Shown: in pieces, positions 1 through 19,400 of the stretch
Numbering within the stretch: position 1 is the stretch's first letter
How the letters are laid out: each line of letters opens with the position of its first letter
Assembly: GCA_000310025.1 (NCBI GenBank)
Contig: FN648824.1
Coordinates: forward strand, 16,387-37,892
Reading direction: 5' to 3'
DNA length: 21,506 nucleotides
DNA from: Ectocarpus siliculosus
Taxonomy: Eukaryota > Sar > Phaeophyceae > Ectocarpales > Ectocarpaceae
Program-made: the position numbers and the translations under genes
Notes under the pieces: model-generated
What the model saw: the letters and a program-made list of their open reading frames with translations, nothing else
What the model was told of the DNA's origin: nothing
The model's database searches: none

Positions 1-1130
1 GGTGCTTCCACTCATTGGCGCGTCCCGTGCTAATACGTGTTTTCATGCTTTTCTTCGATGCGTTGGATACGGTAAACTCCACTTGCCAACAGCGCGGGTG
101 CTTCCACTCATTGGCGCGTCCCTCGCTGAAACTGACAACACATATGCAGCACGGGTGCTTCCACTCATTGGCGCGTCCCGTACTGATATTTATACGCAGC
201 GCGGGTGCTTCCACTCATTGGCGCGTCCCTTGCTGAAACTGACAACGCATATGCAGCACGGGTGCTTCCACTCATTGGCGCGTCCCGTACTGATACTTAT
301 ACGCAGCGCGGGTGCTTCCACTCATTGGCGCGTCCCTCGCTGAAACTGACAACGCATATGCAGCACGGGTGCTTCCACTCATTGGCGCGTCCCGTACTGA
401 TACTTATACGCAGCGCGGGTGCTTCCACTCATTGGCGCGTCCCTTGCTGAAACTGACAACGCATATGCAGCACGTACTGATACTTATACGCAGCGCGGGT
501 GCTTCCACTCATTGGCGCGTCCCTTGCTGAAACTGACAACGCATATGCAGCACGGGTGCTTCCACTCATTGGCGCGTCCCGTACTGATACGTGTACGAAT
601 TCGTTTTCGATGCGTGGAAATCGGTTAATTCTACTCGCCAACAGCACGGGTGCGTCCACTCCTTGGCGCGGCCCGTGCTGATACGTGTACGGCTTTTTTT
701 TTTTCTTTCTTGTTGAGATCGGTTAACTCTACTCGCCAACAGCACGAGTGCTTCCACTCGTTGGCGCGTCCCATGCTGAGGCTGACATCACATATGCAGC
801 ACGGGTGCTTCCACTCATTGGCGCGTCCCGTACTGATGCGTGATTTGTGGTATTTTTCTACCGCTGCGTTGAATTCGGTTAACTCTATTCGCCAACAGCG
901 CGGATGCTTCCATTCGTTGGCACGTCCCGTGCTGAGGCTGCCAGCACACATGCAACGCCATGCGGTCAGCTCTACTCGCCAACAGCGCGGGTGCTTCCAC
1001 TTATTGGCGCGTCCCGCGCTGATACATGTATAACTTCGTGTTTCGGTACGTTGAGATCGGTTAACTTCCACTCGCCAACAACATGGACGAGTACTTCCAC
1101 TATTGGCGCGTCCGTGCTGGTGCGTATCCG
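1..1130 (-). repeat. Minisatellite of Y-L (about 53-bp monomer, 107-bp higher-order unit)
   Basis: A conserved 27-bp block (GGGTGCTTCC ... GGCGCGTCCC) recurs through this stretch, separated by a few recurring spacer types. One short spacer carries TGAAACTGACAAC and CATATG, another carries TACTGATACTTATACGC, and a long one carries GGTTAACTCTACTCGCCAAC. The two short types alternate from about 205 to 500, giving a 107-bp higher-order period. The same blocks appear inverted at 10318-12062. The many overlapping open frames here are repeat translations, not genes. Confidence 0.9.
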
Positions 1131-2252
1131 TCTTTTTTTTTTTTTTTTTTCTTTTTTTTTTTCATTGAGATCACTTCCGCATAGACAATCCTACGGCAGG
1201 TTGACGAGTTCTGGCATGCATCAATTGCTGTCCGGGCGTTTTTGGAACGGTCGCTTAATCGTCGTTGGATGTGACGTATTGTTATAGAACGTTTGTGTCA
1301 CGGCATGTGCGCGCACGACTTGATGCCCCTCGAGACCTTGGTACACCTAGATTGACCTTTGAATGACGGCCTTCGCGGGTTCGAACGTCGCGGTAATTTT
1401 CTTCTCGCCCCTTTTTTTTTTCATCTTCTTTTTCCTCATGCATACAGCACGTAGTTCGCTGTCTCGTTTTTTTTTCTCGTCTTCTTTGTTTTTCAGTATT
1501 TTCTTTGAGTCTTTCTCTCGCATGCATGTGGTTTTTGCTTTTATCCGTTCCCGTGAGTGCTGTTGAATGCACTTTCCGATTACGTATGCGGCCGCTTTGT
1601 ATACCGTGGGACTTGTCAATACCATCAGTGGGGACTTGTCAATACCATCCGTTGAGGCGATTGCTCACGTGAGTGAGCATATTATCGTGGGTTCCTTCAG
1701 CTATATGCCCCTCTGTGCGTGGCACCGATAAGGTTGTACCGGCAAGTAGTCCCAAGCCGGGGAAAACAGAAAAAACAAGGCACCTGCCTCATGTGCATAC
1801 TCTTGACATGCCCTACTGCCGCGGGTCGATTGGTTAGGTCCGAAGCCGCAAGATTCCTCCGCCCCGTGCAGTACAATGGCTGCTATCGTGGCACGTACAG
1901 CAACCGCGACAAGTCAGCGTGCGACCATACAACAGGCCCCGCGCTTTCTTTTTTCCGTTGAATTTTTTTCTTCAGCGAGAGTACGTCTCGATTGGGATGA
2001 ACCGCATCCCATGTTTGGGGAGGTACCTATCTGAGCGGCGTGGCGAGCGAGACTGCGGTGGCTTGCCGTCGCTTATCTTACTGCACCCTCCCCCCTCGTG
2101 CTAAATGCACGCAGCGGTGAGGTCACAAGAGTAGCGGGACGCGAATAGGAACACGGCCGACACGATGGATGTTGGACACGCGTACACACCTTTATATGGA
2201 GAGTCGCGTGCTGGTCGCTTCCCCAATGCTTGCGCCGTGTCCCGTCCCGCCC
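1131..2252 (-). other. Y-L leader (no convincing gene)
   Basis: This is the counterpart of 9170-10317 in Y-R, read on the minus strand. It holds T-rich tracts near 1130-1165 and 1405-1520, the duplicated GGGACTTGTCAATACCATC at about 1608-1650, and the reverse complement of the TATA-like CATATAAAGG near 2190-2200. Several lysine-rich or low-complexity frames occur on both strands. None has a recognisable domain and I do not call any as a gene. Confidence 0.6.
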
Positions 2253-2515
2253 TTTTCTAAACTGCCGCCGCTACTGCGTAAGGCGGCTGCTGCTGTCCTT
2301 CCGTTGCCTCACGCGCTCTGTAGCTGTCACACGTTACCCGACTTCGCTACAGCCCCTGCGTGGACTCGATCACGGAATGACACCCCCAACTATAGAGTAA
2401 TAATTCCAAACGCCGTGACCCTGGGTTTCCGGTAGAAAATGAAGCCAAATTCTAATTCGACTGTTACAAAATAAACACCAGTTTATTCTATCTGCTTCGA
2501 CGAACAAACCTTCCT
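2253..2515 (-). repeat. A terminal repeat of Y-L
   Basis: This is the reverse complement of the 263-bp A repeat seen at 8907-9169 and 14832-15094, with about seven substitutions. It begins with AGGAAGGTTTG on the minus strand and ends with TTTAGAAAA. It contains an AATAAA hexamer about 30 bp from its outer end, as the other A copies do. Confidence 0.88.
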
Positions 2516-2582: not shown

Positions 2583-3973
2583 GCTCAGGGCTGTGGACAC
2601 CCTGTGGAGGGTTTCACCCTGTACCTGACCCTGTGGGTACCCTGTCGAGGTAAAAAATATTGCCAGGGTCACTGGGTCAACAATGACAGGGTTAGGGTAC
2701 CCACAGGGTCGACGAAGAAACACACCCTGCGGGTCTGGAAAGTTCGACAGGGTCATTTCGCGAACCTTGCCAGGGTCACGTCATCCGCAGGGTCACCAAA
2801 ACCCGACCTTGGGGATATCGTATGGTCCACAGGGTTACAAGTTATCGCCATGACAGGGTGCCGATACCCGCAGAGTCGGTAAAGGAACACACAATGTGGG
2901 GTTTGAAAGTTCTACAGGGTCATTCGGTTCACCTTGCCAGGGTTACCTCATCCGCAGCGTCACGAAAACCTGAACTTGGGGGTATCGTGTGGTCCGCAGG
3001 GTACCATGTGCTCACCATGACAGGGTTTCGGTACCCTCAGGGTCGGCGACGTAGAACAGTATGTGGGGGTTGAAAATTCTACAGGGTCATTCGGTGAAGC
3101 TTGCCGGGGTGGGGTCATCCGCAGGGTCATGAAAACCCGACCTTGGGGATATCGTATAGTCCACAGGGTGCCACGTGCTCACCATGACAGGGTTTCGGTA
3201 CCCACAGGGTCGGCGAAGGAATACACCCTGCGGGGCTTGAAAGTTCTACAGGGTCATTCGATGAACCTCGCCAGGGGGGCGTCATCCGCAGCGTCACGAA
3301 AGTTAAACTTTGGTGATATCGTGTGGTCCCCAGGGTTACAAGCTCTGGCCACGACAGGGTGCCGATACCCACAGGGTCGGTAAAGAAACACACCATGCGG
3401 GGCTTGAAAGTTCTACAGGGTCATTCTGTGAGCCTTGCCAGGGTCACGTCATCCGCAGGGTCACCAAAACCCGACCTTGGGGATATCGTGTGGTCCACAG
3501 GGTTACAAGTCATCGCCATGGCAGGGTGCCGATACCCGCAGGGTCGGTAAAGGAACGGTTTGAAAGTTCTACAGGGTCATTCGGTTCACCTTGCCAGGGT
3601 TACCTCATCCGCAGCGTCACGAAAACCTGAACTTGGGGGTATCGTGTGGTCCGCAGGGTACCATGTGCTCACCATGACAGGGTTTCGGTACCCACAGGGT
3701 CGGCGACGTAGTACAGTATTTGGGGGTTGAAAATTCTACAGGGTCATCCGGTGAACCTTGCCAGGGTGGGGTCATCCGTAGGGTCACGAAAACCCGACCT
3801 TGGGGATATCGTATAGTCCACAGGGTGCCACGTGCTCACCATGACAGGGTGCCGATCTCCACAGGGTCGGTGAAGCAACACACCATGCGGGGCTTGAAAG
3901 TTCCACAGGGTTATTCTGTGAACCTTGCCAGTGTTACTTTATCCACAGGGTCACGTAATTAAAACCTTGGGGA
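2583..3973 (+). repeat. 167-bp satellite, left part
   Basis: Successive copies of the phase mark TTCTACAGGGTCATTC begin their ACAGGG at 2747, 2914, 3081, 3248, 3415, 3571, 3738 and 3905. The spacing is therefore 167 bp, with one unit shortened to 156. Each monomer is itself built from several CAGGGT motifs, so it probably grew from a shorter repeat. From 2583 to about 2652 the motif appears reversed as ACCCTGT, an orientation switch at the array edge. The monomer is cut at CCTTGGGGA by the 5' LTR and continues after the 3' LTR at 15942. Long open frames inside are repeat translations. Confidence 0.9.
3969..3973. other. Target-site duplication, left (GGGGA)
   Basis: The five bases before the 5' LTR are GGGGA, repeated directly after the 3' LTR. 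Five bp is the usual duplication size for copia integrases. The duplicated bases lie inside the satellite motif CTTGGGGATA. Confidence 0.9.
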
Positions 3974-4385
3974 TGTTGAAATACAGCGCATCACTGCTGT
4001 AGGATGTGTGTAGTAGAATAGATGCAGCTGTATGATTGCTGTATGCAATGATACGTACATGCGGTGTGATATGTGATGTTTGGTAAAATGTAACATGTAT
4101 GACGGGTTCTAGCGAGGAACTCACGAATGAATTGATGGTTGAGCAGAGGATTGTAATTGTAGCGAGATCACGAGGTGTTGCGAGCCCCACCGGGTTCACT
4201 CCCCAACTATCCCTCAACATCTCACCTCTGCAACTGAGCTAGGCTCCGGTGCCACCGGCAGGCAATAATGAAAGTCCCATTGAGGCAACAATGATACCAA
4301 CTTCAATCTCGACGACTACACACAGGCTTAACCGCCTGCAGACACGACCCTTGGGTACAGGGCACCTCGACTACACATTTCTACA
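3974..4385 (+). repeat. 5' LTR (412 bp)
   Basis: It starts TGTTGAAATACAG and ends CATTTCTACA. It is the same as 15530-15941 except for one T/C difference (ATGTGATGTTT here, ATGTGACGTTT there). The end is fixed by the point where the two copies diverge: the pol-bearing interior starts here and satellite starts after the other copy. An open frame crosses into the interior from inside the LTR, but the LTR part is not expected to be coding. Confidence 0.93.
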
Positions 4386-4397
4386 TGGTATGGGCAC
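4386..4397 (+). promoter_or_regulatory. Primer-binding site candidate
   Basis: TGGTATGGGCAC directly abuts the 5' LTR. Its first six bases match the classical copia primer site TGGTATCAGAGC, which is complementary to the 3' end of initiator methionine tRNA. The remaining bases differ, so the exact primer tRNA is uncertain. Confidence 0.6.
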
Positions 4398-5805
4398 ACG
4401 ACATGCATCAACAGGACGAGGAGGGCCGATAACAGAAGAAACACAAGGAGCGAGACAGGCTAACCCTGTTCGTCACCAAGTCCAAGACAGGGATGGTACT
4501 TGGACTTTCAACCCAAGAATGTACAACGGCGATCATCGGACTATCAACAGAGCTGCAACAGCTCATGAGGAGACGAGGGGGTCTACTCACAACCGGAATG
4601 TCCGAACCACGTCACAACCAACTGAAGAGACAGTGGTTGAAGGTTATAATGGGAACCTTGGATACCCATGCGTCAGCCGCATGGAGATGGCAGCACAACG
4701 AGCTGCTTATGTGGAATTCGATCAAGGAAAATTTAATTTACTGGTGGATAGTGGAGCATCGGGCCACTACTTGGACAGCGACCTGTTACCGGATCTGGAA
4801 AACATATTGGATGACTTCACGTACATCACTACGCCAACGAAGATCATTGGTGCTGGAGGAATTGAGCTTGAAGGGATCAGTGAAGGCATCATCAACGTTT
4901 TCGCCAAGGATGGCGAAGGAAACGACAGGAGAGTGCGGTTCAAGTGCACAGTGGTTCCAGGGCTAGGGCGGCACCTGTTCTCTACTGGAACAGCTCAGAA
5001 GAAAGGTGCGAATACGATAATGTCAGATCAACCTCGAATCGAGTTGCAGACTACTTCGAGAGATGAATCAAGAATCGCCCTGGTGTTACGAGAAGTGGGG
5101 ACGCTGTACTTCCTGGATGTGCGACTTGACACAAGCCAGCGTGAACGAAGACAGAGGATCCACGAGGAAAATATGAACACGTACGAGAAAGCATACATTG
5201 CTGTCCCACGCGCGGAGCCATACAATCTTTGGCATCGGCGTTTGGCGCATTGCCACAAGGGCATCATTGAGGCAGCAGCGCGCATTAAAGAAACTGGAGT
5301 TAAGCTCACGGACAACTTGGACCCGTGCGAGACCTGCAAACTTCAGAAGAGCACCCAAAGGAAGCACCCCAAAACGGCACAGCACACTGCTGTTCAACCA
5401 TGTCAACGGGTGTACACGGATCTGCTGGGACCAATTTCGCCACCTGCAAAGGGCGGATTCAACTATGTCAGCAAATTCACGGATGAATATTCCAGAATGA
5501 ATGTCGTGTACCTGATAAGGACCAAGGACGAAGCCATCGACACACTGGAACGATTTATTGACGACATCGTCATACCGAATGGTTTTCGACTGGAGCAGCT
5601 TCGGAGTGACTGTGGAGGAGAGTACACAGCTGAGTACTACAAGAAGTTCTGCAAAACAATTGGAATCGTCCAAGAATTTACGGCACCGGCAACACCGCAA
5701 CAAAATGGGATAAGCGAGCGTGCTGGACGGACGCTCATGAACATCGTTCGATGTTTAATGCATGGCGGACAACTACCGGAGTATCTATGGGGCGAGTTGT
5801 GCTGA
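4390..5805 (+). CDS. pol: Copia pol, first part: protease, GAG-pre-integrase, integrase core
   Basis: The frame is open from inside the LTR; the first ATG in the interior is at 4390. About 119 residues with no capsid domain or zinc knuckle precede the aspartic protease motif LLVDSGASGHYL (catalytic Asp codon at 4747). Next comes the zinc-binding GAG-pre-integrase region (LWHRRLAHCHKG ... CETCK, about 5227-5343). The integrase triad follows: Asp in TDLLGP (5419), Asp in RSDCGGEY (5608) and Glu in NGISERAGR (5716). The frame ends at an in-frame TGA (5803-5805) shortly after the triad, inside conserved integrase sequence (LWGELC, stop, TAVHITNRLPH). Gag is absent, which is unusual for copia. The TGA may be a disabling mutation or, less likely, a read-through site. 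Confidence 0.9.
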   Translation: MGTRHASTGRGGPITEETQGARQANPVRHQVQDRDGTWTFNPRMYNGDHRTINRAATAHEETRGSTHNRNVRTTSQPTEETVVEGYNGNLGYPCVSRMEMAAQRAAYVEFDQGKFNLLVDSGASGHYLDSDLLPDLENILDDFTYITTPTKIIGAGGIELEGISEGIINVFAKDGEGNDRRVRFKCTVVPGLGRHLFSTGTAQKKGANTIMSDQPRIELQTTSRDESRIALVLREVGTLYFLDVRLDTSQRERRQRIHEENMNTYEKAYIAVPRAEPYNLWHRRLAHCHKGIIEAAARIKETGVKLTDNLDPCETCKLQKSTQRKHPKTAQHTAVQPCQRVYTDLLGPISPPAKGGFNYVSKFTDEYSRMNVVYLIRTKDEAIDTLERFIDDIVIPNGFRLEQLRSDCGGEYTAEYYKKFCKTIGIVQEFTAPATPQQNGISERAGRTLMNIVRCLMHGGQLPEYLWGELC

Positions 5806-8043
5806 ACGGCGGTACACATCACGAATCGCCTGCCGCATGTGCATCTGAACAACGAGACGTCTTACTACCGGATGTTTGGAAAACAAGCTTCGTTACGACA
5901 TCTACGGGTTATCGGATCGTCAGCGTTCGTACACGTCGAAACGTACAAGACTAAGCTTGCAAATCGAGCTTGGCCCGGAATACTGGTTGGGTACAGCCCC
6001 AACAGCAACGCTTATCGGATTTATAATCCGCATACCAAGCGCATCGTTCCATCGAGAAACGTGACTTTCATCGAACCAATGGACGCGGCCATGCCGCCGG
6101 TCATACCTATACCGACCATTGAGGAACTACGCGACTACGAACCGGAAAACGAATTATCGGTTTCCGCGGATGTCGACATACCCGGAAACGAGGGGGAAGT
6201 GAAAGATAATTCGAAATATGAGGAGGACTACTACGAGGAAGAAGGACAACAAGACCAAGAACAAGAACAAGGAATTATACCTCGCATGCACTTGCGAAGC
6301 AGCGGAAGGAATACGGATATTCAACAATCAACAAACAACAAACGGCAGCAAGCGGAGCTACGGAGGCTATCGCCATGGAATAAACTAGCGACTTTTGTCG
6401 ACCAAGACCAAGAACAAGGCCAAGATATAAGAATCAAGAATCCATCAGCCGGAGAACCTGTCCGGCCGCCAGCATCTATACCTGTACCCACTACATATCA
6501 AGAAGCCATGAGGTCTGTGGATGCCAATCAATGGAAAGCAGCTATGGACAAGGAGATGAGAAGCCTGAAAGATCATGATGTGGCGGATCTAGTTCCAATT
6601 CAGAGTCTACCTCCTGGAGCTAAACCCATAGGATCGAGATGGTTATACAAGATGAAAGCAACCGGAGTTATGAAGGCAAGACTTATCGTCCAAGGCTGGG
6701 GACAACGGCATGGAATCGACTGTGGAGGAACCTACGCACCTGTGAGTAGATTTAGCTCACAGCTGGTCTTAATGGCAATTGCAGCGGAAAGAGGATACGT
6801 TGTGGAAACGATGGACGTGGTGACTGCATTTCTCCAGAGCAAAGTGGAAGAAGAAGTAGATGTTCATCAAGCTAAAGGTTACGAAATACTGGATGAAGTG
6901 ACGGGACTACCGCTGGTGATGAAGCTCAAGAAAAGCTTATACGGATTGAAGCAGAGCCCTCGGAACTTCGGCAACGCATTTGCCAAAGGAATAAAAGAAA
7001 TCGGGTTTACTGCTCTACTGAGCGACCCGTGCGTATATGTGTACGGTGCTGGACCGACATATGCGATACTATGTGTGTACGTGGACGACTGCACACTAGC
7101 TGGAAAGACACCGAGCGTGGTTCAAGATTTGAAGAAACAACTATCGGACAAATTCAAGATGACGGACGGAGGACCAGCGGAACTACTACTAGGGATGGAG
7201 ATTTCTCAGAGCGACGGAGAAATCGCAGTGAGCCAACACAAATATGTGATGCACATACTGCACAAGTATCAAATGAAGGACTGCAAATCAGCGGCGACTC
7301 CAGGATGCGGGCCAGAAATTGAACAAGAGCCGGAGAATGCTATATATCTAAGTGACGAGGACAAGAAACTCTACCAGGGAATAGTCGGAAGTCTCCTCTT
7401 CTTGACTAACACGACGAGATGGGAGATTGGATATGCCGTCATGATCCTGTGCAGAGGGATGAACAAGCCTACCAATCAACATATGGTCGGAGCAAAGAGA
7501 GTGCTGCGATACCTTCGAGGATTCCCGGATATGCCACTAAAGTTCGGGAGAGGGCAATGGAACCTGAAGTGCTACTGTGACGCGAACTTCGCTGGATCGG
7601 GCGAGAGACTTCAGAAGCGTTCTTCTACTGGATATATTTTCATACTTGCGGGAGGCGTCATCAGTGCAGCATCAACTCTGCAGAAGCTAACAGCACAATC
7701 AAGTGTACATGCGGAGATCATCGCGATGGCTACAGCAGCGAGGGAAGCAATTTATCTGCAAGGTGTACTATCGGAACTTGGATTTCCATGCGGCAACATC
7801 CCGCTTCATTCGGATTCAACGGGAGCGCTGAGCACAGCAGGAAACTCCATGTTTCGAGGCCGCAGCAAGTTCATCAGCACGAGATACTGGCTACTTCGCC
7901 AGAACGTCAACCAGGGAAACATTGTGCTAAAGTTCGTGAGGAGTGAGGAGCAGCTTGCGGACATATTGACCAAGCATCTGGAACGTGTCCAATTCGTCAA
8001 ACTGCGGACATTGGTTCAAGAACGTGGAGGATCTACGAAATAG
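5806..8043 (+). CDS. pol: Copia pol, second part: integrase C-terminus, reverse transcriptase, RNase H
   Basis: This is in the same frame as the upstream part and separated from it only by the TGA; the first ATG is at 5839. It starts with the integrase tail and an acidic, Glu/Gln-rich linker (about 6120-6480). The copia RT begins around 6490 (TTYQEAM, WKAAMDKEM) and has RLIVQGWGQRHGIDCGGTYA, the first catalytic Asp in TMDVVTAFLQ (codon 6814) and the YVDD box (7078-7089). RNase H has Asp in CYCDANFAG (7579), Glu in SVHAEII (7714) and Asp in LHSDSTGAL (7813). It ends with the copia-typical SEEQLADILTKHLE. No other stop or frameshift is seen, so the RT could still be intact if expressed from the internal ATG. 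Confidence 0.92.
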   Translation, partial: TAVHITNRLPHVHLNNETSYYRMFGKQASLRHLRVIGSSAFVHVETYKTKLANRAWPGILVGYSPNSNAYRIYNPHTKRIVPSRNVTFIEPMDAAMPPVIPIPTIEELRDYEPENELSVSADVDIPGNEGEVKDNSKYEEDYYEEEGQQDQEQEQGIIPRMHLRSSGRNTDIQQSTNNKRQQAELRRLSPWNKLATFVDQDQEQGQDIRIKNPSAGEPVRPPASIPVPTTYQEAMRSVDANQWKAAMDKEMRSLKDHDVADLVPIQSLPPGAKPIGSRWLYKMKATGVMKARLIVQGWGQRHGIDCGGTYAPVSRFSSQLVLMAIAAERGYVVETMDVVTAFLQSKVEEEVDVHQAKGYEILDEVTGLPLVMKLKKSLYGLKQSPRNFGNAFAKGIKEIGFTALLSDPCVYVYGAGPTYAILCVYVDDCTLAGKTPSVVQDLKKQLSDKFKMTDGGPAELLLGMEISQSDGEIAVSQHKYVMHILHKYQMKDCKSAATPGCGPEIEQEPENAIYLSDEDKKLYQGIVGSLLFLTNTTRWEIGYAVMILCRGMNKPTNQHMVGAKRVLRYLRGFPDMPLKFGRGQWNLKCYCDANFAGSGERLQKRSSTGYIFILAGGVISAASTLQKLTAQSSVHAEIIAMATAAREAIYLQGVLSELGFPCGNIPLHSDSTGALSTAGNSMFRGRSKFISTRYWLLRQNVNQGNIVLKFVRSEEQLADILTKHLERVQFVKLRTLVQERGGSTK

Positions 8044-8906
8044 GAGATTTCATAAGGCGGAGCAGCAAATGTGATAGTTTCAGATGTATAAGGACAACAC
8101 GGGAAGGCTGGTGCGACGACTACACACCAACCACTACCAAGAAAAACAAGACAGGACTACCTGGGACAACAACGACAAGAGGAAAGACATCACAAACAAG
8201 ACAGGACTACCTGGAAAACAACGACATACAAGACCGACAAGACCAAGGAGGTGTACTTCCTGGACGACAACAACAACAACAATAACAACAGCGTCATCAT
8301 CGAAGACGTCTGGAGACACAACAACGGCTTAATTGCTACACTGGAGAAGGAGACGGGACGAGAAGGAAAGTCATGACGTATGAAATAGTTATACCGAACA
8401 TCAGTAACGTAGAGAAGAGTGATTTTTGTGAAAATACAGTGAATCCCGGGCATGGACATCACAGACATGATGTTTGCTGCAGGGTCATTCTGTCTACATA
8501 GAAGAATGAACGGTTTTACGAATAGGTGTATGTGATACTTCGTATGAGGTGTGATTCTGGTAAGGTAAAAAAAAAATGGCCAGATGAAAGAGAAATGCTG
8601 TGATAGAGGTATGTGTTTACGTACGTGCTAAGAGCGTTGAGGTACAGTAGTATGCGACGAATGAAAGGTTTACTATGGTCATTCAACCGTAGTCAATGTA
8701 TTTCACTATTGTAGAAACAGTTAAACGCAGTTGTTTTTTAGTTGAGCAAACTTGGGGACGAAATTCTGATCTTTGTTCACTGAATGCGGGGAGAGAATAA
8801 GAAGATAAGGAGAAGAAAATAAGGACGATTATTTTTTGGAGCAGGATAGCAGCTGAACAGGCAGTTGTTGAAGCATGAGTAACGCGCGTACCGTTATACA
8901 AAGTAT
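8044..8906 (+). other. 3' untranslated region of the LTR element, left of nested Y-R
   Basis: This is noncoding sequence after pol. It contains a 50-bp direct duplication (ACAAGACAGGACTACCTGG at about 8146 and 8196) and an ACA/ACG-rich stretch that translates to poly-threonine. A lone CAGGGTCATTCTGT near 8481 recalls the flanking satellite. I see no gene. The element resumes at 15401 after the Y-R insertion. Confidence 0.65.
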
Positions 8907-9169
8907 AGGAAGGTTTGTTCGTCGAAGCAGATAGAATAAACTGGTGTTTATTTTGTAACAGTCGAATTAGAATTTGGCTTCATTTTCTACAGGAAACCCA
9001 GGGTCACGGTGTTTGGAATTATTAGTCTATAGTTGGGGGTGTCATTCCGTGATCGAGTCCACGCAGGGGCTGTAGCAAAGTCGGGTAACGTGTGACAGCT
9101 ACAGAGCGCGTGAAGCAACGGAAGGACAGCAGCAGCCGCCTAACGCAGTAGCGGCGGCAGTTTAGAAAA
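8907..9169 (+). repeat. A1 terminal repeat of Y-R (263 bp)
   Basis: It begins AGGAAGGTTTG and ends GGCAGTTTAGAAAA. I find no difference from A2 (14832-15094). It includes an AATAAA hexamer near 8934. After TTTAGAAAA the copies diverge, which fixes the inner end. The outer end is fixed by comparing the three left flanks (A1, A2 and Y-L). Confidence 0.92.
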
Positions 9170-10317
9170 GGGCGGGATGGGACACGGCGCAAGCATTGGG
9201 GAAGCGACCAGCACGCGACTCTCCATATAAAGGTGTGTACTCGTGTCCAACATCCATCGTGTCGGCCGTGTTCCTATTCGCGTCCCGCTACTCTTGTGAC
9301 CTCACCGCTGCGTGCATTTAGCACGAGGGGGGAGGGTGCAGTAAGATAAGCGGCGGCAAGCCACCGCAGTCTCGCTCGCCGCGCCGCTCAGATAGGTCCC
9401 TTCCCAAACATGGGATGCGGTTCATCCCAACCGAGACGTACTCTCGCTGAAGAAAAAAAATGCGGTTCGTCCCAACCGAGACGTACTCTCGCTGAAGAAA
9501 AAAAAAATCAACGGCAAAAAGAAAGAGCGGGGCCTGTTGTATGGTCGCACGCTGACTTGTCGCGGTTGATAGCAGCCATTGTACTGCACGGGGTGGAGGA
9601 ACCCTGCGGCATCGGACATAACCAATCGACCCGCGGCAGTAGGGCATGGTGCTGTCACGAGTATGCACATGAGGCAGGTGCCTTGTTTTCTGTTTCCCCC
9701 GGCTTACTAGGGACTACTTGCCGGTACAATCTTGTCTGTGCCGCGCACAGAGGGGCATATAGCTGAAGGAATCGACGATAATATGCCCACTCACGTAAGC
9801 AATCGTCTCCACGGATGGTATTGACAAGTCCCCACTGATGGTATCGACAATTCCCATGGCATACAAAGCGGCCGCATACGTAATCGGCAAGTGCATTCAA
9901 CAGCATTCACGGGAACGGATAAAAGCAAAAACACATGCATGCGAGAGAAAGACTCAAAGAAAAAGACTGAAAAACAAAGAAGACGAGAAAAAAAAACGAG
10001 ACAGCGAACTACGTGCTGTATGTATAAGGAAAAAGAAGATGAGCAAAAAATAGGGGGGGGAGGTGAAAGTGACACGCGAGGTTCGAACTCGCGAAGAACG
10101 TCAGGTAGCGGTCCATGTGAGTGCATCACGGTCTCGAGGGGCATCACGTCAAATTTATTGCCGCTGTGACACAAACCTTCTATAAGAATACGTCATGTCC
10201 ATCGACGATTAAGCGACCAAAAACGCCCGGACAGCAATTGATGCATGCCAAAAACTCGTCAACCTGCCGTAGGATTGTCTATGCGGAAGTGATCTCAATG
10301 AAAAAAAAAAACAAGGA
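9170..10317 (+). other. Y-R leader with TATA-like site and 45-bp duplication
   Basis: This is the sequence between A1 and the minisatellite, matching Y-L 1131-2252 in inverse. It contains CATATAAAGG at 9224-9233, a 45-bp tandem duplication at 9416-9506 (TGCGGTTCRTCCCAACCGAG, single in Y-L), A-rich tracts and a poly-G run near 10052. A short palindrome, CGCGAGGTTCGAACTCGCG, lies near 10074. Small basic frames at 9838-10053 and 9891-10169 are seen in Y-L as well, but they follow the A-rich composition and have no known domain. I do not call them genes. Confidence 0.6.
9224..9233 (+). promoter_or_regulatory. TATA-like site of element Y
   Basis: CATATAAAGG lies about 55 bp inside the inner end of A1 and is kept in Y-L (2190-2199, inverse). 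It could set the transcription start of element Y. This rests on the motif and its position only. Confidence 0.35.
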
Positions 10318-12062
10318 CACGCACCAGCACGGGACGCGCCAATAGTGGAAGCACTCGTCCGTGCTGTTGGCGAGTGGAAGTTAACCGATCTCAAACGCAA
10401 CGAAACACGAAGTCATACATGTATCAGCACGGGATGCGCCAATGAGTGGAAGCACCCGCGCTGTTGGCGAGTAGAGTTAACCGAATTCAACGCAGCGGTA
10501 GAAAAATACCACAGATCATGCATCAGTACGGGACGCGCCAATGAGTGGAAGCACCCGTGCTGCATATGTGATGTCAGCCTCAGCACGGGACGCGCCAATG
10601 AGTGGAAGCACTCGTGCTGTTGGTGAGTAGAGTTAACCGATCTCAAAAAGAAAGAACAAAACGCCGTACATGTATCAGCACGGGACGCGCCAATGAGTGG
10701 AAGCACCCGCGCTGTTGGCGAGTAGAGTTAACCGAATTCAACGCAGCGGTAGAAAAATACCACAAATCATGCATCAGTACGGGACGCGCCAATGAGTGGA
10801 AGCACCCGTGCTGTATATGTGATGTCAGCCTCAGCACGGGACGCGCCAATGAGTGGAAGCACTCGTGCTGTTGGTGAGTAGAGTTAACCGATCTCAAAAA
10901 GAAAGAACAAAACGCCGTACATGTACCAGCACGGGACGCGCCAATGAGTGGAAGCACCCGCGCTGTTGGCGAGTAGAGTTAACCGAATTCAACGCAGCGG
11001 TAGGAAATACCACAAATCATGCATCAGTACGGGACGCGCCAATGAGTGGAAGCACCCGTGCTGCATATGTGTTGTCAGCCTCAGCACGCGACGCGCCAAC
11101 GAGTGGAAGCACTCGTGCTGTTGGGGAGTAGAGTTAACCGATCTCAAAAAGAAAGAACAAAACGCCGTACACGTATCAGCACGGGACGCGCCAATGAGTG
11201 GACGCACCCGTGCTGTTGGCGAGTAGAATTAACCGAATTCAACGCATCGAAAACGAAGTCGTACACGTATCAGTACGGGACGCACCAATGAGTGGAAGCA
11301 CCCGTCCTGCATATGTGTTGTCAGTTTCAGCAAGGGACGCGCCAATGAGTGCTGTTGGGGAGTAGAGTTAACCGATCTCAAAAAGAAAGAACAAAACGCC
11401 GTACACGTATCAGCACGGGACGCGCCAATGAGTGGACGCACCCGTGCTGTTGGCGAGTAGAATTAACCGATCTCCACGCATCGAAAACGAAGTCGTACAC
11501 GTATCAGTACGGGACGCGCCAATGAGTGGAAGCACCCGTGCTGCATATGTGTTGTCAGTTTCAGCAAGGGACGCGCCAATGAGTGCTGTTGGCGAGTAGA
11601 GTTAACCGATCTCAAAAAGACAGAACAAAAACGCCGTACACGTATCAGTACGGGACGCGCCAATGAGTGGACGCACCCGTGCTGTTGGCGAGTAGAATTA
11701 ACCGATCTCCACGCATCGAAAACGAAGTCATACACGTATCAGTACGGGACGCGCCAATGAGTGGAAGCACCCGTGCTCATATGTGTTGTCAGTTTCAGCA
11801 AGGGACGCGCCAATGAGTGGAAGCACCCGCGCTGCGTACAAGTATCAGTACGGGTCGCGCCAATGAGTGGAAGCACCCGTGCTGCATATGTGTTTTCAGT
11901 TTCAACGAGGGACGCGCCAATGAGTGGAAGCACCCGCGCTGTTGGCAAGTGGAGTTCACCGTATCCAACGCATCGAAAAAAAAAAAAAAAACACGTATCA
12001 GCACGGGACGCGCCAATGAGTGGAAGCACCCGTGCCGATGGCGAACCGGGGTTCACCGAATC
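10318..12062 (+). repeat. Minisatellite of Y-R (about 22 blocks)
   Basis: The conserved block here reads GGGACGCGCC ... GGAAGCACCC and occurs about 22 times. Spacers recur as a small set, including a long one with GGCGAGTAGAGTTAACCGA and A-rich tails (AAAGAAAGAACAAAACGCCG). A roughly 250-bp higher-order unit is clear at 10430-10930. Each block carries GCGCCAAT, which contains a CCAAT box and whose complement ATTGGCGC fits the E2F-type consensus WTTSSCSS. Open frames on both strands here are repeat artefacts. Confidence 0.9.
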
Positions 12063-12433
12063 CAAGAAAAAATATATATATAAAAAAAAGAGAAACCATC
12101 GCTAGTGTTCCAAAGAGAGAAATATTCGGGATTGGTCGACGTCCGGTGACCGTAGCGTCAGCAGCAATAATCACTCCATTCAATCCACAGGCGTCGAGAA
12201 CGAACTAACGCGAGCTCGCGATATAACAACCCGTCGTTCTGGGCCCGACGAAAACCCACGTCAGATAGTTTCGCCCGAAGATAGGATTTGTAGACCATTC
12301 TAACTGCAGATCCAGGCGCGCGATCGACTACGCCCACGATGAAGAGGAAAAGAAGTGTTCCCGCAACGCCGCCCTGACGCTCGCCCGCCGCCTGCCGCCG
12401 GTCCGCTGCTTATACCACTCCAACCGCGACCAG
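12063..12433 (+). other. Spacer between minisatellite and gag-like frame
   Basis: This starts with an A-rich stretch (AAAAAATATATATATAAAA at about 12065-12087, possibly TATA-like) and turns GC-rich after about 12310. The frame of the downstream gag-like region is open from 12269 but has no ATG before 12434. An ATG at 12339 in another frame (MKRKRSV) meets a stop at 12375. An intron, a frameshift or a non-ATG start could all explain this. Confidence 0.5.
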
Positions 12434-12895
12434 ATGCCGACACGGGCCTCCACGCGGAGCGGCAGGGCAGCGGCTGGGCAAGCAGGGCGAGGTCGGGCGG
12501 CGACACCTTCGACACCACGCACGAGGAGGTCTACCGCGCGATCGGTGGCGAGCTCGACGGCTCGCCCCTCGACGCGCAGCGGATCACGTACTCCCGCGAG
12601 GCGTCGAGCGGTATCCTCCTCGCGAGCGCCAGGGACAGGCACCCGCGGCGACCCCCCCGCTGATGAGACTGAGCTCGCTTCTCTCCGCGGGCTGGTGGAC
12701 GGCCTGAGGGAGGAGCTGCAGCGGAAGCGCGATGAGGCTGCCGGCGATCGCCAGCAGCTTCAAGCAACGATCGACGACCTGATCGCCACCCAAGCAGCAG
12801 GACCTGGCCTTCCGGGGGGGGGTGCAACTGGTGGGCACAACCGCCCCACCATCGGCCTCTCGGGCCCCCGCTACACCCAGCGCCGAGGCGGCTAA
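12434..12895 (+). CDS. Gag-like frame, N-terminal part (Ser/Arg-rich and coiled coil)
   Basis: This 153-codon frame starts with a basic Ser/Arg/Ala/Thr-rich region (residues 1-75). A predicted coiled coil follows at about 78-120 (ETELASLRGLVDGLREELQR onward, with regular Leu spacing). The frame is open upstream to 12269. It runs past a G9 tract (12814-12822), after which the better protein sequence lies in the +1 frame at 12822-13304. The two are therefore probably one original protein, broken or shifted at the G-run. A nucleocapsid or Gag role is inferred from its position before the zinc finger and recombinase. There is no direct homology that I recognise. Confidence 0.5.
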   Translation: MPTRASTRSGRAAAGQAGRGRAATPSTPRTRRSTARSVASSTARPSTRSGSRTPARRRAVSSSRAPGTGTRGDPPADETELASLRGLVDGLREELQRKRDEAAGDRQQLQATIDDLIATQAAGPGLPGGGATGGHNRPTIGLSGPRYTQRRGG

Positions 12896-13304
12896 GGCTA
12901 CGGCAAAGGAGAGAGCGCGGATGTGGGGGGACCTCCGCCGGGTAAAAGCGTGGCTCATCCTGGGGCGGCCTCCGGCAGTTTCAAAACTGTCGCAGATGGA
13001 GTGGCAATCCTTGCTTCGCAAAGGCGTCCTGGTGACAGGAGAAAGTGGCGGCATCGCTCGACACGCTCGTGGTTACTGCTTCGCCTTCAACTCGTCGTCC
13101 GGTTGCCATGATCGTAACTGCCCACACATCCACGCCCAGAACCCTTCCCACGCTAGGCGCGGAGCGTCCGAAACTCCGGCAACCGGCGCGCGCGGCGTTG
13201 GCCACGGCAACGGGGGAGGGCGCGGAGGAGAGGCGCGCGCCGCTGGCGAGGGCGGCGCGAGACCCAAGGCCGCTGGCTTCTTCACCCACGGGAAAGACAA
13301 ATAG
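12822..13304 (+). CDS. Gag-like frame, C-terminal part with CCCH zinc finger
   Basis: This frame is open from 12783 and its first possible start is a GTG at 12822 inside the G9 tract, so independent initiation is unlikely. A helical segment (about residues 25-72, ending LLRKGVLV) leads to a zinc finger, GYCFAFNSSSGCHDRNCPHIH. Its spacing is C-X8-C-X4-C-X3-H, with the first Cys codon at 13077. The tail is Gly/Ala/Arg-rich. CCCH fingers of this spacing bind RNA or DNA and occur in ORFs of tyrosine-recombinase elements. It ends at TAG 13302-13304, directly in frame with the recombinase downstream. Confidence 0.6.
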   Translation: MQLVGTTAPPSASRAPATPSAEAAKATAKERARMWGDLRRVKAWLILGRPPAVSKLSQMEWQSLLRKGVLVTGESGGIARHARGYCFAFNSSSGCHDRNCPHIHAQNPSHARRGASETPATGARGVGHGNGGGRGGEARAAGEGGARPKAAGFFTHGKDK

Positions 13305-13322
13305 GGGTGCGGGCTCTCCCGC
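13302..13322 (+). promoter_or_regulatory. Candidate amber read-through site
   Basis: TAG at 13302-13304 is the only stop between the zinc-finger frame and the recombinase frame; both are in the same frame, and no ATG occurs downstream until 13470. The stop is followed by G, and a perfect 5-bp hairpin (GCGGG, loop CTCT, CCCGC; 13309-13322) starts four bases later. A stop followed by a nearby structure resembles known retroviral Gag-Pol read-through signals. Read-through here is inferred, not shown. Confidence 0.4.
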
Positions 13323-13469
13323 GTAGCGGGGGGGCCTACCTCGGATGGCAGCGCACCTGCGGCTAAATCGAACGGCAGCACGCCGGTCTACACGAGGTTG
13401 GCTCCAGGGCTATCAGCAGGTTCAGGACCTGGGACAGGCAGGACGGGACTTTGTTACCGACGTCTTGGC

Positions 13470-14552
13470 ATGCAGCTCGTCGAGCACTCAGTTGGGTCTT
13501 CGTCTAGAAGGACTTACACGTCAGGCTTCAACTCTTGGTGCACGTTTCGCAGGCTGACGGAGAAGCCCAAGTTCCTAGGGCAACGTGCCGGGGACCTTCA
13601 TGTGTGGGAGTTGATAGACTTCGTAGCCTGGTGTTTCGAGTCTGAGGGTAATCTAGCGAGTACAATATCCGGAAAACTCACGGCTGTACAACATTTTCAT
13701 AGGCTGGAAGCTTCTGTCGAGCTAGACTTGTCGTCTCCGATGTTGAAATGTGCGCTAAGGGGGATTGCGAGGAACCACGTGGCTGTGGGGACGGTACGCC
13801 GTGTGCGCCTGCCTGTGTCTTGGCGTATGCTGCTGGACGGGGAAAGCGCAAGCCAGAACTGGGGGGAAGGGGGCAGAGTGATGTGGCTGTGTCTGTGCTT
13901 GTCCTATCTAATTATCACACGGTCTGATGAGGTGTTCGCGAATGATGCGGGCAGGGTGCATGAGGCACACTGTCTTACGAGGGCGGACGTAGCATTGTTT
14001 GCTGGCGAGACGCAATTAGTCTTTAGTCACTATCGTAGAGCAGACCGTGTCGAAATGAGGTTTAGAGGGCACAAGGCCGATCAAGAGCAGAAAGGAAACA
14101 TACGGGTTCGTACGCGAGACGAAGTCACCGGACCGCAGTCAGGTGTGAGAGCACGCGGCGGCGCGGTGGCTCTTGTGGTGGAGCTGTTATCGTGTCATGC
14201 GACGTTGCCTGACTCCGCACCGTTGGCTTCGTACCGTAGTGGAAGAGCAGTGAGAGTAGTGAGGTATACTGCTGCCCTCCGTGCAGTCAGAGAAGTGGTA
14301 GCGAAGTCGGGGCGTAACCCCCAGGAGTACGCGTTGCACTCGTTGCGAATTGGAGGCGCGACGGCTCTTGCATCGGGCGGAGACATCGCAGAACGAGTGA
14401 TTCAGAGAGAAGGGAAGTGGAGGTCGGATGCATACAAGCCGTACGCGCGAAACAATGTAGAGGATTGGCGGCGAGTGTCACGGAAACTTACAGACGGCAG
14501 TAGGATCGTATCGAGACAGCCGGGGGAGGGGACCGTCTGGGGGAACGGATAG
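13470..14552 (+). CDS. Tyrosine recombinase / integrase of element Y
   Basis: The frame is open from 13305; the first ATG is at 13470, giving about 360 residues. Counted from the ATG, the N-terminal half is a helical core-binding-like region (SSRRTYTSGFNSW, LIDFVAW). The catalytic domain has Arg at about 151 (ITRSDEVF), a possible Lys at about 202 (FRGHKADQ), His and Arg at about 290 and 293 (ALHSLRIGGATAL), Trp at about 317 in the usual His/Trp site (GKWRSDAY), and the likely nucleophile Tyr at about 325 (YKPYAR). The whole R-K-HxxR-W-Y set is present. HSLRIGGATA is typical of DIRS/Ngaro/Crypton-type eukaryotic recombinases. It probably cuts and rejoins the B1-A2 junction of a circular intermediate to integrate Y. 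The protein looks intact. Confidence 0.9.
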   Translation: MQLVEHSVGSSSRRTYTSGFNSWCTFRRLTEKPKFLGQRAGDLHVWELIDFVAWCFESEGNLASTISGKLTAVQHFHRLEASVELDLSSPMLKCALRGIARNHVAVGTVRRVRLPVSWRMLLDGESASQNWGEGGRVMWLCLCLSYLIITRSDEVFANDAGRVHEAHCLTRADVALFAGETQLVFSHYRRADRVEMRFRGHKADQEQKGNIRVRTRDEVTGPQSGVRARGGAVALVVELLSCHATLPDSAPLASYRSGRAVRVVRYTAALRAVREVVAKSGRNPQEYALHSLRIGGATALASGGDIAERVIQREGKWRSDAYKPYARNNVEDWRRVSRKLTDGSRIVSRQPGEGTVWGNG

Positions 14553-14593
14553 TTGACTTATTCGGTAGTCGTCCAGAAACTGACCTCGATGTG

Positions 14594-14831
14594 GGTGTTG
14601 TAGAATGGTGTGTACCATTTGAGGACTTGGTCAGTTTTGGGACTCCTGCGTTTGCAGTCGTAGTCCCCCGGCTAGTATTTGTGGGGAGAGAGATGGATTT
14701 GTAAGAGTTGACGCCGGCCTTTGCAGCTAACGCGGCCGGAGAGACGATGAGCGTTTCGTGCGTCTCTCTCCCCAACACGTAGCCTAGAAACCGAACAAAT
14801 AATGAAGCAATTCGAAAGAAAACAAAATAAA
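14594..14831 (+). repeat. B1 internal repeat of Y-R (238 bp)
   Basis: It begins GGTGTTGTAGAATGG 41 bp after the recombinase stop and ends AAACAAAATAAA. It matches B2 (15163-15400) apart from one change (CCCCAACACG here, CCCCAAGACG there). It abuts A2 directly. It contains an imperfect inverted repeat around GGAGAGACG ... CGTCTCTCTCC (about 14739-14771). Confidence 0.92.
14826..14831 (+). terminator. Poly(A) signal candidate AATAAA
   Basis: AATAAA forms the last bases of B1, 274 bp past the recombinase stop. The same hexamer ends B2 (15395-15400). It could direct 3' end formation in A2 or just beyond B2. Confidence 0.4.
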
Positions 14832-15094
14832 AGGAAGGTTTGTTCGTCGAAGCAGATAGAATAAACTGGTGTTTATTTTGTAACAGTCGAATTAGAATTT
14901 GGCTTCATTTTCTACAGGAAACCCAGGGTCACGGTGTTTGGAATTATTAGTCTATAGTTGGGGGTGTCATTCCGTGATCGAGTCCACGCAGGGGCTGTAG
15001 CAAAGTCGGGTAACGTGTGACAGCTACAGAGCGCGTGAAGCAACGGAAGGACAGCAGCAGCCGCCTAACGCAGTAGCGGCGGCAGTTTAGAAAA
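14832..15094 (+). repeat. A2 internal repeat of Y-R (263 bp)
   Basis: This is an identical copy of A1 in my reading. The B1-A2 junction (AAATAAA / AGGAAGG) is where a circular intermediate would join the element's ends in PAT/Ngaro-type models. Confidence 0.92.
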
Positions 15095-15162
15095 TCCCGC
15101 CCTCCCATCCCTTTTCTTTCGAAGGTGGGGGCATAAGTTCGGGAATATTCGGTATCTAGTCA
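15095..15162 (+). other. 68-bp linker between A2 and B2
   Basis: This short stretch is specific to the right end. It begins TCCCGCCCTCCCATCCC, a rough inverse of the GGGCGGGATGGGA that follows A1, and ends TTCGGTATCTAGTCA. In the described split-repeat elements A2 and B2 are close or adjacent; this linker may mark the replication template switch. Confidence 0.5.
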
Positions 15163-15400
15163 GGTGTTGTAGAATGGTGTGTACCATTTGAGGACTTGGT
15201 CAGTTTTGGGACTCCTGCGTTTGCAGTCGTAGTCCCCCGGCTAGTATTTGTGGGGAGAGAGATGGATTTGTAAGAGTTGACGCCGGCCTTTGCAGCTAAC
15301 GCGGCCGGAGAGACGATGAGCGTTTCGTGCGTCTCTCTCCCCAAGACGTAGCCTAGAAACCGAACAAATAATGAAGCAATTCGAAAGAAAACAAAATAAA
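15163..15400 (+). repeat. B2 terminal repeat of Y-R (238 bp)
   Basis: This second copy of B forms the right end of Y-R. It ends AAACAAAATAAA, after which LTR-element sequence (GGGGGCGTGTG) resumes. Confidence 0.9.
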
Positions 15401-15529
15401 GGGGGCGTGTGTAATGTAAGAGTACTGAATTGAAGTAGGTGCGTAAAAGACTTGCAGGATTATGCAGTAGATTTAGAACAACACTGGGGTTGTTGAAGTG
15501 CACGTAACATTGCATCCATCATGGGGGCG
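15401..15529 (+). other. 3' untranslated region of the LTR element, right of Y-R, with polypurine tract
   Basis: The rest of the copia interior lies between Y-R and the 3' LTR. It ends ATGGGGGCG (15521-15529), a polypurine-like tract directly against the 3' LTR that would prime plus-strand synthesis. A similar GGGGGCGTGTG at 15401 marks the Y-R junction. Confidence 0.65.
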
Positions 15530-15941
15530 TGTTGAAATACAGCGCATCACTGCTGTAGGATGTGTGTAGTAGAATAGATGCAGCTGTATGATTGCTGTAT
15601 GCAATGATACGTACATGCGGTGTGATATGTGACGTTTGGTAAAATGTAACATGTATGACGGGTTCTAGCGAGGAACTCACGAATGAATTGATGGTTGAGC
15701 AGAGGATTGTAATTGTAGCGAGATCACGAGGTGTTGCGAGCCCCACCGGGTTCACTCCCCAACTATCCCTCAACATCTCACCTCTGCAACTGAGCTAGGC
15801 TCCGGTGCCACCGGCAGGCAATAATGAAAGTCCCATTGAGGCAACAATGATACCAACTTCAATCTCGACGACTACACACAGGCTTAACCGCCTGCAGACA
15901 CGACCCTTGGGTACAGGGCACCTCGACTACACATTTCTACA
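15530..15941 (+). repeat. 3' LTR (412 bp)
   Basis: It has the same length and termini as the 5' LTR, with one substitution. It is followed by GGGGA and then in-phase satellite. Confidence 0.93.
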
Positions 15942-15946
15942 GGGGA
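15942..15946. other. Target-site duplication, right (GGGGA)
   Basis: This is the direct repeat of 3969-3973. The satellite then continues TACCGTGTGGTC, exactly the sequence expected after CTTGGGGA in a monomer. Confidence 0.9.
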
Positions 15947-16985
15947 TACCGTGTGGTCTAGAGGGTTACCAGTGCTCGGCGCGACAGGGTGCCGATACCC
16001 GCAGGGTCAGTGAAGGAACACACCATATGGGGTTTGAAAGTTCTATGACCCTTGCCAGGGTGGCGTCATCTACAGCGTCACGAAAACCCAACATTGGGGA
16101 TATCGTGTGCCCGCAAGGTTTCAAATTATTGCCGTGACACAGTGTCGATACGCACAAGATCGGCGAAGGTACAAACCATCTGTCTGTGTCTTGAACTTCT
16201 GCAGGGTCATTCGGTGCACCTTGCCAGGGTTGCGTCATTCGCAGGGTCACCAAAACTTGACCTTGGGAATACCGTGTCGTCCACAGGTTTACAAGCTCTC
16301 GCCATGACAGGGTGCCCATACCCACAGGGTCGGTGAAGGAACACACAATGTGGGGCTTGAAAGTTCTACAGGAGGGTCATTGTATGCACCTTGCCAGTGT
16401 TACGTCATCCGCAGGGTCACGAAAACCTGACCTTGGGGATACCGTAGTTCACAGGGTTACAAATTATCGCCGTGACAGGGTGTCGATACCCGCAGATATC
16501 CGCAGGGTCGGTGAAGCAATACACCATGTGGGGCTTGAAAGTTCCACAGGGTCGTTTTGTTCACCTTGGCAGTGTACGTCATCCGCAGTAGCGTCACAAA
16601 AGTTAAACCTTGGGGGTATTGATAATCCACAGGGTCACATATTATCGCCTTGACAGGGTACCGATACCCACAGGGTCGATGAAGGATCACACCATGCCGG
16701 TCTTCACAATTCGACAGGGTATTTCGGGGAACCTTGCCAGTGTTACGTTATCCACAGGGTCACGTAAGTCAAACCTTGGGGATGTCGTATGTGGTCCTTA
16801 GTGTCACGAATTCTAGCCACGACAGGGTATCGGCACCCACAGGGTCAGGGAAGCATACATCATGTGGGCTTTGAAAGTTCGACAGGGTGCACCTTGCCAG
16901 GGTTGCGTCATCCGCAGGGTCACGAAAACCAGACATTGGGGATATCGTATGGTCCACAGGGCATGCAGGCATTGACCGCGGGTCC
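15942..16985 (+). repeat. 167-bp satellite, right part
   Basis: This is the continuation of the array cut by the LTR element, with CAGGGT motifs and the same monomer order. Phase marks recur near 16201, 16368, 16542, 16710 and 16880. The copies are more diverged than on the left, with partial motif losses. The array stops near GGTCCACAGGGCATGCAGG. Confidence 0.85.
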
Positions 16986-19325: not shown

Positions 19326-19400
19326 AAATTGCTACGGAAATACGGGGTCCCCTCCCAAGCGGGAGCAGGGGAGTAGCCACCACCTCGGCACTCTATCGAA
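19239..19400 (+). repeat. Diverged Y-like terminal repeat (A-like)
   Basis: The order of short blocks matches A of element Y: TTTGTT, AGCAGA, GGTTTATT, AGTCGAATT, CTACGGAAA, GGGGTC, then GCAGGGG with GTAGC. Spacing is close to that in A1 and overall identity is moderate. It therefore looks like the A end of a related but different family, pointing right. Boundaries are approximate. Confidence 0.55.

Follow-up and report, generated by a model that had tools for sequence, protein, structure and literature searches.

A reverse transcriptase-less derivative of a tyrosine recombinase retrotransposon in Ectocarpus siliculosus and its possible origin by splicing

A stretch of 21,506 nucleotides (nt) from the Ectocarpus siliculosus genome (contig FN648824.1, positions 16,387 to 37,892; here, the window) contains an element, at window positions 8907 to 15400, that raises a question: how does an element with the split direct repeats and the recombinase of a tyrosine recombinase (YR) retrotransposon come to lack reverse transcriptase (RT)? 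A preliminary description of the locus offered two answers, either that the element lost its RT and borrows one while keeping its own recombinase, or that it moves as DNA, and it proposed a separate family without RT. We compared the element with its relatives throughout the genome (189 Mb, 492 contigs). Judged from these sequences, it is an RT-less derivative of an RT-bearing YR retrotransposon of the Ngaro/PAT type residing in the same genome. The loss of the RT block is stranger than that of a plain deletion derivative in being precise, recurrent, and bounded by GT and AG, and retrocopying of spliced RNA would explain it best.

The repeats are arranged as the preliminary description gave them: A1 at 8907..9169, B1 at 14594..14831, A2 at 14832..15094, and, after a spacer of 68 nt (15095..15162), B2 at 15163..15400, all on the forward strand, as are the features given below unless noted. 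A1 and A2 are identical over 263 positions and B1 and B2 match at all but 1 of 238, and repeats so long and so alike are far beyond chance expectation. The A...B-A-B arrangement recurs in dispersed genome copies, and in six of six empty sites fetched from relatives of the copia element that hosts the insertion (26 left-flank matches) the left and right flanks abut with no gap and no target duplication. Assembly error is therefore very unlikely, and we rejected an artifact as the source of the repeats. The lack of target-site duplication is a trait of YR elements.

Within these ends, an open frame of 415 amino acids (aa) at 13305..14552 (first in-frame ATG at 13470) fuses a leader to the YR. 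This YR matched Cre both by profile (E 3.5e-10) and, in its predicted fold, by Foldseek (E 7.7e-9, TM about 0.5). Across 35 aligned YR sequences, R151 is invariant and K202, H290, R293, and Y325 are nearly so, and we take these five residues to be catalytic. The single window YR sequence gave no match in Pfam or the Protein Data Bank (PDB). The full catalytic set credited to the recombinase at the outset is borne out, and the YR is predicted to be an intact tyrosine recombinase of the Cre type. Among the best 40 of 228 candidates for YR DNA, all matches across the genome were 99 to 100% identical. The ratio of nonsynonymous to synonymous change (dN/dS) in the YR was 0.11 to 0.16 when two RT-less copies were compared with C74, an RT-bearing copy.

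A profile of RT and RNase H (RH) run over six frames of the whole window found no RT domain; its sole match was a C-terminal tail at 13327..13554 (43 bits), a relic that overlaps the YR. The same profile scored above 1100 bits in L035, which is one of its own members, and in L027. The element has no RT, as first described, and we rejected a hidden one because the search showed only this tail. The relic was present in 15 of 15 RT-less copies scanned in family 1, the family of the window element, and in L043, a copy from another family, making 16 of 16 RT-less loci. We then asked whether RT occurs in close relatives, scoring the best candidates in each search (113 of 718 for YR protein, 70 of 376 and 58 of 628 for RT). 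Matches to RT lie directly 5' of YR copies that are 94 to 98% identical to the window YR, in C74, C27, C79, C147, C156, and C187. The C74 copy (L035/L036) has three open frames, which measured stop to stop encode 564 aa of Gag, 768 aa of RT/RH, and 392 aa of YR. It is 97.7% identical to the window element in A1 and 98% in the YR-B1-A2-B2 part, and it has the same CCCH motif in Gag, a similar minisatellite, and the same B1-A2-B2 end. The CCCH Gag frame and the minisatellite, which are as first described in the window, are consequently not peculiar to a family without RT. The proposal of a separate family without RT fails, given that RT-bearing copies with the same ends are found in this genome and that an RT tail remains in the window.

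In database searches, 11 of 19 aligned RT sequences matched Pfam RVT_1, weakly (best E 2.7e-4), the PDB sequence search with the RT profile gave no match, and Pfam found no RT in the L022 polyprotein. The RT model resembles foamy-virus and Ty3 RT (E 5.4e-9), but with low TM-scores of 0.2 to 0.3. We rejected L021 as an RT-bearing copy because its 1341-aa frame crosses 2883 N. Runs of N lie upstream of the YR inside two copies, with 2883 bases in L021 (4054-6936) and 3602 bases in L042; because of these runs, the RT status of both is not fully readable.

Compared with the C74 copy, the window element lacks a block of 2054 nt that carries RT/RH, plus 511 and 84 nt in Gag. The block was lost at the junction 13419..13420. 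All 15 RT-less copies fetched for comparison (12 of subfamily 1 and 3 of subfamily 2) break, like the window element, at the same base of the parental RT. This set of the window and 15 copies was drawn from 102 junction matches, and the RT-bearing family-1 set comprised 6 copies of 10 border matches. A pattern across the RT-less junction, allowing up to 2 mismatches, occurs at 102 places (57 forward, 45 reverse; reversed control, 0), and a pattern across the intact right border of RT-bearing copies, searched at a different limit of up to 3 mismatches, at 10 (control, 0). By these counts, RT-less copies have multiplied beyond RT-bearing ones. The ends of the lost block in family 1 read CAG/GTGTGG...TGGCAG/GTTCAG, where slashes mark its boundaries, so that it begins with GT and ends with AG; the RT block is 2054 nt long in L035 and 2063 nt in L022/L027, which belong to another family. 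The block spans the RT/RNase H fold, and its removal joins the short leader, which in the window is the leader of the RT frame (13305..13419, 38 codons and one base), to the YR in frame.

The borders of the block were read in copies that still carry it. In 14 of 15 RT-bearing copies the donor fits one of three motifs, CAG/GTGTGGATG, AAG/GTGGGATTG, or GAG/GTGGGGTTGG; the remaining copy, C476, still has the GT. At the acceptor, the AG is kept in 15 of 15 RT-bearing copies read (C147 replacing C76), with the AG of C27b, C228, and C476 about two codons further on. The acceptor lies in phase 1 of the YR in 13 of 15, the exceptions being C187, which has a stop in the YR, and C460, whose RT and YR are fused through a 1-nt difference. 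Relative to the RT frame, the donors of C74 and C315 are in phase 1, as are, from translations, those of C206, C27b, C228, and C138; automatic assignment gave phase 1 in 11 of 14, with the phase of C206 and C27b taken from translations and none assigned to C187. With both sites in phase 1, splicing would fuse the leader to the YR in frame in those copies. In the RT model, residues 1 to 39 form a disordered leader, and the folded part starts at residue 40, where the donor lies.

The trees and a copy from another family bear on how often the block was lost. The YR tree used 24 of 26 rows, with L027 and L028, which belong to the family of the outgroup L022, dropped; L021 and L042, which contain the N runs, were kept out of the trees, and C147 is absent from the Gag tree. 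The YR tree joins subfamily 1 to four copies that bear RT (support 88/83), whereas subfamily 2 falls with C187, itself an RT-bearing copy (86/85). A single RT-less clade was rejected on the YR side (p-AU 0.0003) and on the Gag side (21 rows, p-AU 0.013). The base 9 nt before the donor is diagnostic: C187 and subfamily 2 have A there, whereas C74, C79, C27, C156, and subfamily 1 have T. L043 (C183) belongs to another family, with a YR about 65% identical; its alignment with L022 runs up to 4884 and resumes at 6945, with RT absent. Its Gag is open (496 aa) and its YR (422 aa) follows in the same frame after one UAG. The ends of its lost block read AAG/GTGGGA and GGCAG/GAACAA, share only 3 bp, and lie at codons homologous to the family-1 junction when the RT proteins are compared by eye. 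The best reading of these data is that loss of the RT block recurred, in two subfamilies at the identical base and in another family at homologous codons. The preliminary description had reasoned that RT-bearing copies would make this element a simple deletion derivative. Such copies were found, yet the GT...AG ends, the same junction in subfamilies that do not group together, and the homologous codons in L043 argue against a simple deletion.

We consider it quite likely that RT/RH forms a facultative intron, and that the RT-less elements would be reverse-transcribed spliced RNA that spread by means of RT supplied in trans. In the parent element, RT/RNase H sits between two sites, a GT donor about 38 codons past the end of Gag and, immediately 5' of the YR, an AG acceptor. 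The unspliced RNA would then yield Gag-UAG-RT/RNase H and the spliced RNA Gag-UAG-leader-YR. A spliced RNA that was packaged and reverse transcribed would integrate as an RT-less element with complete split repeats, and such copies would keep the YR and multiply with the help of RT, and probably of Gag as well, provided in trans. The fuller account, in which this whole group encodes RT in a facultative spliceosomal intron, splicing switches Gag-RT to Gag-YR, spliced RNA is packaged, reverse transcribed, and integrated, and RT-less elements are born repeatedly at one exact junction and come to outnumber their parents, seems to us probable with a smaller measure of confidence. The repeats within single copies are consistent with copying through RNA: at most one difference in about 263 positions separates A1 from A2 in 13 of 15 copies (2 and 5 in the other two), and at most one separates B1 from B2 in 14 of 16 (4 and 2 in the other two). 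Across copies, A diverges by about 4% from one subfamily to the other and by about 2% within subfamily 2. The A and B repeats are homogenized within each copy, which suggests that the ends are renewed, as in cDNA synthesis from one RNA.

Several observations weigh against this explanation, and some of them favor an ordinary internal deletion, arising by DNA recombination between short repeats or by RT template switching at GCAGGT, with the derivative then amplified in trans. The family-1 block has the 6-bp direct repeat GCAGGT at both ends, so the junction falls within a shared 6-mer, and a microhomology deletion is possible there. The same copies carry Gag deletions of the ordinary type (in the window at about 13068 and 13191-13195, the 511 and 84 nt missing relative to C74), and these differ between subfamily 1 and subfamily 2. 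We rejected them as further introns because their ends are not GT-AG, which means that ordinary deletions also occur in these copies. No polypyrimidine tract is evident by eye before the acceptor, and a 1-nt difference in L022 places RT and YR in one frame, so that splicing would be unneeded there. The reading frames also slip between Gag and the UAG in C74 and C206, and between the UAG and RT in C76 and C171. On the side of the trees, the two forks that part the subfamilies in the YR tree are only moderately supported, C147 is unplaced, subfamily 2 is represented by one RT-bearing copy (C187), and this copy fills 30% of the columns in the Gag tree. The L043 junction is unique in the genome at up to 3 mismatches and is known from a single copy, and dN/dS in 12 other YR pairs ranges from 0.16 to 0.66. 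The parts of the explanation that we infer are splicing itself, from genomic DNA, the supply of RT and Gag in trans, and read-through of the UAG.

We nevertheless regard ordinary deletion as unlikely. It does not account for the identical base in a pair of subfamilies left ungrouped by the trees, or for the homologous codons in the diverged L043 family, which lacks the 6-mer. In the zones tested, just 3 of 46 6-bp repeats and 28 of 2977 3-bp repeats would allow GT-AG ends, and the lost block matches a protein domain and leaves frames that join. A junction that arose once and passed to the second subfamily by recombination between element RNAs would explain why both subfamilies share it exactly, and the moderate fork supports leave some room for this; retroelement RNAs recombine readily. 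On the Gag side, however, subfamily 1 closely resembles the RT-bearing C74 copies, also in the stretch that separates the Gag deletions and as far as the base 9 nt before the junction, and it does so again in the YR. With this closeness on both sides of the junction, the transferred tract would be tiny, and L043 would stay unexplained; we think this origin very improbable. The scenario with the least to recommend it, in our estimate scarcely credible, is that the element moves as DNA in the manner of a Crypton, by its own recombinase and with RT no longer needed. An intact YR without RT and a clean insertion without target duplication would fit. In contrast, A1/A2 and B1/B2 were homogenized per copy after the subfamilies split, which is unexpected of DNA excision and insertion unless gene conversion acts, and RT-bearing partners with matching ends exist. 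Given the homogenized repeats and the RT-bearing kin, we rejected a Crypton-like DNA transposon, and movement as DNA, one of the two answers first offered, is not supported. The other answer fares better: RT was lost and the recombinase kept, and RT is most likely borrowed.

The TOC1 and TOC2 elements of Chlamydomonas have split repeats, internal tandem repeats, and no RT. To our knowledge, they encode no recombinase, whereas the window element keeps an intact YR. The published work cited from here on is covered in part, and our statements apply to the portions covered. Ngaro elements have A1-[ORFs]-B1A2B2 repeats (ORFs, open reading frames), Gag, RT/RNase H, and a YR in place of a DDE integrase (Cafeteria burkhardae, PMC8547959). 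The window element resembles them in its split direct repeats, its YR with conserved residues, and its insertion without target duplication; it differs in having no RT/RH, which its relatives encode, and we therefore file it as an RT-less derivative rather than an autonomous member. Its parent differs from Ngaro in that RT/RH is bounded by GT-AG, and neither YR splicing nor RT-less spliced copies are described for Ngaro in the portions covered (PMC8547959, PMC3783388). PAT elements have the same repeats, including the split direct repeats seen here, and belong to a group with a methyltransferase (PMC4157794); no methyltransferase domain was matched by Pfam in the parent frames, on which Pfam was weak. 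For Ectocarpus, 15 Ngaro and 5 PAT-like families are tabulated, and the family of the window element may be among them; in the portion of that work covered, neither RT-less Ngaro elements nor DIRS splicing is named for its DIRS/Ngaro and DIRS/PAT-like families (PMC12477816). Cryptons have a YR without RT and short direct repeats but no long ones (PMC3212892), whereas the window element has long split repeats, the relic of an RT tail, and RT-bearing kin in the same genome.

The nearest parallel for splicing is the Ty1/copia element EVADE, in which facultative splicing of a long coding intron gives two messages, one of them the subgenomic shGAG RNA for Gag (PMC8892269). The algal element, as proposed, would likewise draw two messages from one element through a facultative coding intron. 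The two differ in that splicing in EVADE favors Gag over Pol, whereas in the alga it would remove RT/RH, bring the YR into frame, and give a spliced form inherited as mobile elements. In a search by title and abstract, with most subscription papers outside it, we found no description of RT lost by splicing from a YR element. In fungal Ngaro elements, the YR frame may be shifted relative to RT/RH and overlap it (PMC3783388), and we found no account of how an out-of-phase YR is expressed in the portions of the Ngaro literature covered. A facultative intron, if true, would explain YR expression in Ngaro-type elements, where YR and RT often overlap in different phases. If true, a precise loss of RT that recurs would prove directly from the genome that these elements pass through an RNA intermediate; it would also show retrotransposon parasites arising from an element's own RNA processing and open a path by which YR retrotransposons could readily give rise to recombinase elements free of RT.

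Gag and its stop codon bear on what the RT-less copies would need in trans. In the window, an N-terminal Gag frame (12269..12895, with MPTRAS... from about 12434) is ended early by a frame slip, and a C-terminal Gag frame with the CCCH motif occupies 12783..13304. All 13 of the subfamily-1 copies read have a broken N-terminal frame and an open YR, which suggests that Gag is supplied in trans. A single UAG (13302..13304) separates Gag from the YR frame, as first described, and this stop shares the Gag frame in C76, C27b, C228, C476, C171, C138, C315, L043, and the window. The TAGGG context, common to other families, is constant in 8 aligned sequences. Most copies examined have a GC-rich hairpin after the UAG (noted at window 13302-13336 and in L027, L047, L049, and L051); in the window it occupies 13311..13336, 6 nt 3' of the UAG. 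This hairpin was clearly better than shuffles in 3 of 9 sequences, one of the nine with a shifted start. The context and the hairpin together resemble a signal for stop-codon read-through, a possible function that we offer as a lead only.

The remainder of the element consists of a 5' leader (9170..10316), also found in RT-bearing copies, and the minisatellite (10317..12044), also found in the RT-bearing C74 copy. Among the matches listed, the only named relatives of the window proteins are from Ectocarpus sp. CCAP 1310/34. In L017 (8363-8896), the 5' leader stands after A2 in place of the spacer and B2, an arrangement that looks like a second element joined at the B1/A2 junction and may reflect site-specific recombination there. 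The insertion sites listed have no long common motif by eye, and their left flanks are A-rich, often like the AATAAA end of B. A second, inverted copy, of the RT-bearing kind and absent from the preliminary description, contributes its 5' part to the window (1..2515, reverse strand). Its RT-YR border lies on the same contig (C273:12468-12499), and its 3' part is outside the window beyond 3602 N; at that 3' side the end of RT is retained together with this border, and the YR frame of the copy is broken.

The host of the window element is a copia element (3969..15824, with RVT_2 and an integrase core), and the insertion lies near its 3' end. The copia integrase and RT (4243-8043) are in one frame, split by a single stop codon near 5803-5805. 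A 167-bp tandem repeat flanks the copia element on both sides (2683-3955 and 15871-16961), which gives a nesting order of satellite, then copia, then YR element. Further along the window are a 504-aa open frame on the reverse strand (17817-19331), for which Pfam gave no match, and a 124-bp tandem repeat at 20712-21506.

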